From positions 1-42,072 of the forward strand of contig CANQMD010000003.1 of NCBI GenBank assembly GCA_947624885.1: a stretch of DNA of 42,072 nucleotides, in the 5' to 3' direction. The notes beneath the pieces were generated by a model. It was not told the DNA's origin and made no database searches. It worked only from the letters and a program-made list of their open reading frames with translations. This DNA is from an uncultured Clostridia bacterium. GTDB lineage: Bacteria > Bacillota > Clostridia > Christensenellales > CAG-917. The position numbers and the translations under genes were made by a program. Positions within the stretch are counted from its first letter, which is position 1. Each line of letters opens with the position of its first letter. This document shows, one piece after another, positions 41,013 to 42,072 of the stretch.

Positions 41013-41104
41013 GGAGAAGTACCCAAGAGGCCGAAGGGGCTCCCCTGCTAAGGGAGTAGTACGAGTGAATCGTAGCCAGGGTTCAAATCCCTGCTTCTCC
41101 GCCA
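41013..41104 (+). tRNA. trnS: tRNA-Ser(GCT), CCA encoded
   Basis: ggagaag...cttctcc acceptor stem, anticodon arm ctccc-ctgctaa-gggag (GCT), long variable arm, T-arm ccagggttcaaatccctg, terminal gcca. Confidence 0.96.
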
Positions 41105-42072
41105 AGTGCAACTCGTTTGAACTCTTTTGGTTCAAGCGAGTTGTTTTCTATTATCTCTTCAAGATTTTCGGCAGCCTCGGCTTCTTTTAATTGTTTTTTG
41201 TCAAGTTGTTTGATCTCTCGGTCGTTCGAGTTATAGAGGATAATAACCTTATCGTCGAAAAGAATGACACGGTTTATAAATGAGTTAAAGAATTCGTTTC
41301 TTTCCTCGCCGTCCTCGTATTTCATACGTGCAAAGTAAGACAAAAATTTCTTGACTTCGCTTGCTTTTAGCGGCTTTATCTGCCGCGCTTGTTCCACGGC
41401 GATTTTCGTTTCGAGATCGGACTTTTCCGCTTCCAATGAAAGTAGTCGCTCCTGCGTTGTCTTTGTAAAAATGCCGTGTTCTATCGCCGCCATAATGCCG
41501 CCGATTGATTTATTGACCTCTTTGAGTTCCTTTTCAAGCGACAGCAGAGCAACGGGTGTGGCAAGGTCGGCGTTGAATTTCTCGGTAACAATGTTCGATA
41601 TTTTGTCGATGATATTCGGGCGAAGGACGTACTTTATCGTCGCCTCGAATATCAAGCGTTCTATGTACTCTTGACTTACGGCTTTCTTTTGACAATCGGT
41701 TGTTCTCAGCTTTTTACCGTAGCACTTGTAGTAGTGGTACACTCGCCCCGTCTTGCTCGTTCCCGCCTCGGCAGTAATAGCCGAATGACAGTACCCGCAA
41801 ACGAGTTTGCCGCTTAAAATATACGGCTGTTCGTCATAATTTTTTCTTTGTTTGTGTTTATGCGTATCCATGACCGAATTTGCCTCGCGGAACAGAGTTT
41901 CGTCCACAATGGGCGGAATGACGTTGGTATAGACTTTGCCGTCTATGTTGACGACGCCTATATATTTCTCGTTTCGTATAATGCGGGCAAGTTGGCTCAT
42001 CGTGAACTTTTTGCCCGATTTGGTCTTTATCCCCGAGGCGTTCAGGCGGTCTATAATATCTTTCGCCTTCTC
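41083..42072 (-). CDS. Large serine recombinase, C-terminal part (truncated by window edge)
   Basis: Translation from the edge: EKAKDIIDRLNASGIKTKSGKKFTMSQLARIIRNEKYIGVVNIDGKVYTNVIPPIVDETLFREAN... (Recombinase domain), zinc ribbon LVCGYCHSAITAEAG..YHYYKCYGKKLRTTDC, coiled coil. Reading frame is open to the window edge. Confidence 0.93.
   Translation of the reverse strand, partial: EKAKDIIDRLNASGIKTKSGKKFTMSQLARIIRNEKYIGVVNIDGKVYTNVIPPIVDETLFREANSVMDTHKHKQRKNYDEQPYILSGKLVCGYCHSAITAEAGTSKTGRVYHYYKCYGKKLRTTDCQKKAVSQEYIERLIFEATIKYVLRPNIIDKISNIVTEKFNADLATPVALLSLEKELKEVNKSIGGIMAAIEHGIFTKTTQERLLSLEAEKSDLETKIAVEQARQIKPLKASEVKKFLSYFARMKYEDGEERNEFFNSFINRVILFDDKVIILYNSNDREIKQLDKKQLKEAEAAENLEEIIENNSLEPKEFKRVALGGEAGI
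41109..41149 (+). terminator. Intrinsic terminator of tRNA-Ser, inside the recombinase CDS (antisense)
   Basis: caactcgtttgaac-tcttttg-gttcaagcgagttg (14-bp stem, one G-U) followed by ttttct. Confidence 0.82.

Follow-up and report, generated by a model that had tools for sequence, protein, structure and literature searches.

How can the gene of a large serine recombinase (LSR) come to end inside a tRNA gene, and which DNA supplies its last codons? The question is raised by a stretch of 42,072 bp (hereafter, the window), which is the whole of contig C3 in the 160-contig assembly G000. We are highly confident in reading the locus as the attL junction of a genomic island that an LSR would have integrated at the 3' end of tRNA-Ser(GCT), binding the T-loop through its zinc ribbon and exchanging strands at a CC dinucleotide. 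All bacterial genomes named below are metagenome-assembled, and our conclusions are drawn from sequence comparison.

The recombinase gene and its overlap with tRNA-Ser(GCT)

The minus-strand frame that enters the tRNA gene (Table 1) ends in ...EPKEFKRVALGGEAGI before its stop, or ...FKRVALGGEAGI-TGA at the DNA level, where the T-loop and the 3' strand of the acceptor stem, read as their reverse complement, give GGA GAA GCA GGG ATT TGA. A preliminary description had placed this stop codon inside the T-loop of tRNA-Ser, and it had read the sequence correctly. The tRNA gene is still intact after integration and is 100% identical in relatives with and without the element. Since the window ends 968 bp past the tRNA, only the C-terminal part of the recombinase is present, but complete homologues of 515 aa are found in G004 and G016. 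The G004 copy (P0002), 98% identical to the window fragment, has the catalytic domain PF00239 followed by PF07508 and PF13408, that is, the complete LSR set of N-terminal resolvase, recombinase and zinc ribbon domains. Its PDB matches include chains of the A118 integrase and TP901-1. Most of the window is occupied by an uninterrupted frame of 9,230 codons (11393-39085, minus strand), possibly encoding a giant protein.

Table 1. Features of the tRNA-Ser(GCT) locus (window positions)
Feature	Position	Strand	Basis or remark
Host tRNA-Ser(GCT), attB	41013..41104	+	ARAGORN
T-loop G53-C61 (GTTCAAATC); putative attB half-site motif for the zinc ribbon (bp 19-11, counted from the centre)	41081..41089	+	Spacing compared with attP arms
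LSR, C-terminal 329 aa	41083..42072	-	N-terminus past contig end, which is the window end
Recombinase TGA stop codon, inside T-loop, host-supplied	41083..41085	-	Reading-frame translation
Recombinase domain PF07508	41866..42066	-	Pfam
Zinc beta-ribbon domain PF13408 (Zn_ribbon_recom)	41641..41820	-	Pfam
CCGCCA identity block	41099..41104	+	Sole block common to the tRNA and the far ends of G016, G004 and G001
P' arm of the element, CTCGTTTGAACTC; also encodes recombinase EFKR	41112..41124	+	Inverted repeat of the G004 far-end arm GAGTTCAACGAG
Hairpin and T-run, element DNA, likely replacement tRNA terminator	41108..41144	+	-22.6 kcal/mol, z -6.5

Element boundaries and the crossover site

The nearest named relatives are uncultured Clostridia from rabbit and ruminant guts. 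Genomes of the same genus have the tRNA and its upstream neighbourhood in common, whereas the sequence beyond the tRNA differs. The same recombinase adjoins tRNA-Ser(GCT) in G004 and G016, a relative of the same type is found there in G014 (~64% identity over 482 aa) and G005, and several other genomes of the genus have none. In G004 the far end of the element, 8,217 bp past the tRNA, corresponds to what G017 has immediately past its tRNA (98.8% over 327 bp); the G016 far end, 10,794 bp past the tRNA, corresponds to the G010 site (96% over 1.9 kb). Both far ends match empty sites in independent comparisons, so the two elements are insertions. The comparison of relatives with and without the element supports two earlier proposals, namely that the junction between element and host (attL) lies in the tRNA and that the element rebuilds the tRNA end, the last tRNA nucleotides being element-derived.

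A further expectation, a 25-bp direct repeat by which ggttcaaatccctgcttctccgcca would recur at the far end, was not borne out: the genome contains none, and the far ends in relatives share 6-8 bp with the tRNA, which is typical of LSRs. In G000 itself, a search for a repeat of the tRNA 3' end returned the tRNA and one match with three mismatches at another tRNA-like end, nothing else, and a search for the far-end arm of the element gave no match. The far ends of G016 and G004 (element B) read ...GTGCCGCCA up to the boundary, that of G001 (element C) ...CTCCCGCCA and the tRNA ...TCTCCGCCA. As CCGCCA alone is common to them, the exchange falls within this block. The crossover dinucleotide is most likely the CC at 41099-41100 (tRNA nucleotides 71-72), and given a crossover there, we propose that GCCA at 41101-41104 is element-derived.

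This placement can be compared with the symmetry of attP. Rebuilt on paper from the far and near ends, attP of element B reads GAGTTCAACGAG...CC...CTCGTTTGAACTC and that of element C GTTTGTTTTAG...CC...CTAAAACAAAC. The palindrome of C is centred exactly on CC and that of B within half to one base of it (counted by hand); in the clade of overlapping recombinases described below, the right arm stops at +18, one base off perfect symmetry about CC. The ~50-bp inverted repeat about the crossover dinucleotide that typifies an LSR attP is seen in elements B and C and also in Dulem virus 37 (PP511443.1). The latter is a complete circular phage genome, in which attP is uninterrupted and has a 12-bp inverted repeat with the same geometry. 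It lies in the 3' end of the annotated integrase gene (L218, 3951-4003), and its left half ends in the tRNA-end-like CTCCACCA, which suggests that this phage integrates at a tRNA.

The 45 bp past the tRNA contain the P' arm, the final recombinase codons and the hairpin with its T-run, and this hairpin probably replaces the displaced tRNA terminator. At two other loci (L194 and L200), native-looking tRNA terminator hairpins are found displaced at the far ends of the elements, with a new, element-supplied hairpin next to the tRNA. In G026 (C2:154069-154089, L005) and G035 (C3:57400-57420, L009), 21 bp of the tRNA-Ser 3' end recur some 140-200 bp beyond the tRNA, together with an inverted GCAGGGATTT; this looks like a miniature or remnant element.

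The T-loop as a probable recognition motif

In the Listeria integrase, the zinc-ribbon motif occupies bp 16-24 of the attP half-site and bp 11-19 of the attB half-site, a shift of 5 bp (PMC3783163). We observe the same relationship between the arms of attP and the T-loop. GTTCRA or ATTCRA starts 29 nt before the CCA end in 10 of the 10 reconstructed attP arms that show the motif (G004, G016, G309, G105, G111, G392, G032, G063 and two in G035); some far ends were chosen with arm similarity as a criterion, while the exact offset was not imposed and the far ends of G004, G016 and G001 come from comparison alone. In the tRNA, GTTCRA of the T-loop starts 24 nt before the CCA end, a distance set by fixed tRNA geometry. 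Counted from CC, the attP arm begins at bp 24 and the T-loop motif covers bp 19-11, so that the motif is 5 bp closer to the centre in attB than in attP (24 versus 29 nt), as is characteristic of LSRs. Because the two offsets reproduce the known zinc-ribbon shift, the T-loop is probably the recognition motif of the recombinase. The motif is not universal, since the attP arms of element C lack GTTCRA. A search of further genomes at fixed spacing returned far ends with CCGCCA for tRNA-Ser and CAACCA for tRNA-Met (L194, L200); its 16 matches, against 9 for the reversed pattern, include chance matches, and the far ends named here were recognised by their mutual similarity and their position on the contig of a known element.

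In its entirety, the process might run as follows. The zinc-ribbon domain would most likely bind the tRNA gene through GTTCRA of the T-loop, and strands would be exchanged at CC. The element carries the last tRNA nucleotides (G73-CCA, given that crossover), the hairpin and the body of the recombinase gene. That gene reaches the edge of the element without a stop codon of its own, so that its frame enters the tRNA in antisense and the host tRNA sets both tail and stop. The borrowed tail would be a neutral side effect of fitting the end of the gene, the arm and the terminator into the same 45 bp. By inference, the recombinase would also be catalytically active, the island mobile and the hairpin a site of transcription termination, and the G000 element would have a far end.

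Distribution across genomes and tRNA genes

The overlap is not confined to this genome, being present also in G004, G016, G014 and G005 of the same genus. In the recombinase tree it occurs in 40 of 72 loci, all in one clade, at tRNA-Ser of four isoacceptors and at tRNA-Met; recombinases outside this clade, located at other tRNAs, stop before att. Of 200 genomes from the order, 153 have a composite motif (T-loop, CCA and arm), versus 34 of 200 when the spacer was shifted by 6, and 13 genomes of the same family have 71 such sites versus 2 with the shifted spacer; these sums were made by hand from tables, and motif-based counts include some chance sites. The recombinases adjoining composite-motif sites are found at Arg, Ala, Val, Leu, Glu and Ser tRNAs. 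G000 itself has 8 sites. Besides the one in the window, seven tRNA 3' ends of this genome (contigs C19, C20, C38, C63, C71, C106 and C138) have an arm-like GAAC at +18/+19, which makes other elements or their remnants likely. When IMG/VR was scanned with the recombinase, a single distant match was returned.

The borrowed tail and alternative explanations

The preliminary description had also supposed that the recombinase takes its stop codon from host DNA. This holds: in the attP sites that we rebuilt for G016 and G004, the frame meets no stop at this point and passes into the other end of the element. Moreover, the copy at tRNA-Ser(GCT) ends in GGEAGI, whereas the near-identical recombinase of G396 (98.6% identity over 360 aa, same P' arm), located in tRNA-Ser(TGA), ends in GGR. 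Near-identical recombinases with different tails at different tRNAs indicate that the host sequence sets the tail. Integrated tails extend 1 to over 30 residues beyond GG (L101, for example, reads 30 or more codons through the tRNA), and a conserved functional tail encoded by the tRNA was rejected on this range. In view of this variation, we consider the tRNA-coded tail to be most probably a neutral by-product. In the rebuilt circle form, the frame ends in GGTSATLIELVLEF in G016 and GGVCASLIELLIEF in G309, and longer circle tails are predicted in G004, G105, G111 and G392. A conserved circle tail was also considered; as the tails are alike in close relatives only, it is not decisive.

Translation of the rebuilt attP predicts two forms of the recombinase, circle and integrated, and one could imagine that integration acts as a switch. 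The longer C-terminus of the circle form, possibly destabilising or activating, would be exchanged for a short tRNA-coded stub, changing the activity or stability of the enzyme; the stop in the T-loop would then arise because the zinc-ribbon motif of attB is nearer the centre than that of attP by 5 bp, hence in another frame. There is a precedent in mycobacteriophage BPs, whose repressor has a longer viral form with a degradation tag (PMC4557955), and the integrase frame of Dulem virus 37 likewise crosses attP. In addition, TSATLIELVLEF (G016) and VCASLIELLIEF (G309), circle tails of two proteins that are ~83% identical, are of the same length and resemble each other in sequence. However, the FEL/IEL likeness of these tails is explicable by the GTTCRA DNA motif alone, circle tails as a whole vary in length and sequence just as the integrated ones vary in length, and the frames of recombinases at other tRNAs end well short of att. 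We therefore consider such a switch unlikely.

Two other explanations seem to us very improbable. As tRNA 3' ends are the classical sites of tyrosine integrases, the island could have been inserted by an enzyme of that type, with the serine recombinase as a mere passenger. Such an insertion should have left a long tRNA repeat, yet the genome has none and identity is limited to 6-8 bp, on which ground we reject it; furthermore, a serine recombinase adjoins the junction in 40 related loci, and attP has LSR-like symmetry together with the 5-bp shift. The overlap might also be a chance meeting of an unrelated frame with the tRNA or a contig misjoin, a suspicion that a metagenome contig ending so soon after the tRNA invites. 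Against it, the same joint recurs in independently assembled rabbit-gut genomes and, with other tRNAs, in ruminant-gut genomes.

Relation to known systems

LSRs are highly valued for DNA integration, and in the literature consulted they naturally target mostly protein genes; A118, for instance, uses comK. The earlier remark that LSRs seldom use tRNAs fits this literature but fails in the present bacterial order, where LSRs are found at the 3' ends of many tRNAs. Our searches of open-access papers turned up no account of LSRs that target many tRNAs through the T-loop. Similar to the A118/LI integrases (PMC3783163), the recombinase combines Resolvase, Recombinase and zinc-ribbon domains with an attP inverted repeat and a 5-bp shift between attP and attB; in contrast to the protein-gene target of A118, the attB motif here is the conserved tRNA T-loop.

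A recombinase that obtains its stop from a host RNA gene is already known. In the ssrA islands of Dehalococcoides, the gene of the recombinase DsiB overlaps attL and its stop lies outside the island (PMC3146451). The likeness extends to a serine recombinase at the 3' end of a small-RNA gene, to tandem islands and to the stop codon lying outside the element, which for DsiB is only in host or neighbouring-island DNA. Yet DsiB is CcrB-like and is paired with a second, small serine recombinase, DsiA; its insertion point is inside the tmRNA T-loop, and the repeat is 20 bp long. Here one LSR would act, apparently alone, at tRNA genes, with the crossover in the acceptor stem and 6-8 bp of identity. 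Streptococcal ICEs at rumA (PMC4701971) also have very short repeats, one of them inside the serine integrase gene, but their target is a protein gene. Mycobacteriophage BPs similarly carries attP inside a coding gene whose C-terminus is altered by integration; there the gene is that of the repressor and the switch has been shown experimentally, while here it is the recombinase gene and the two forms are predicted.

The tRNA-wide targeting is more interesting than the borrowed tail. The lineage appears to use as its attB motif the T-loop, common to nearly all tRNA genes, and the position and spacing of this motif fit the structure of an A118-family integrase. If true, attB sites would be predictable in most bacteria, and many tRNA insertions whose 6-8 bp repeats easily escape notice would be accounted for. 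It would also be a clean case of host sequence writing part of the enzyme of a mobile element.

Tandem elements and cargo

In G001 a second element, C, separates the tRNA from the recombinase end of B, whereas G016 has B first and C after it. The differing order means that the site gathers elements in either order, the newest presumably adjoining the tRNA. Similar tandem-looking junctions are present in the relatives L092, L113 and L126. A Pfam scan of the eight other proteins of the G004 element found no relaxase, and no second, DsiA-like recombinase was seen among the scanned genes of this element. The cargo of element B in G004 (L063, 5413-9736) comprises two C5 methyltransferases and a FokI-like endonuclease, that is, a type II system, and that in G016 (L065, 9862-17655) a type III restriction-modification pair. 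One recombinase module is accordingly found with differing restriction-modification systems.
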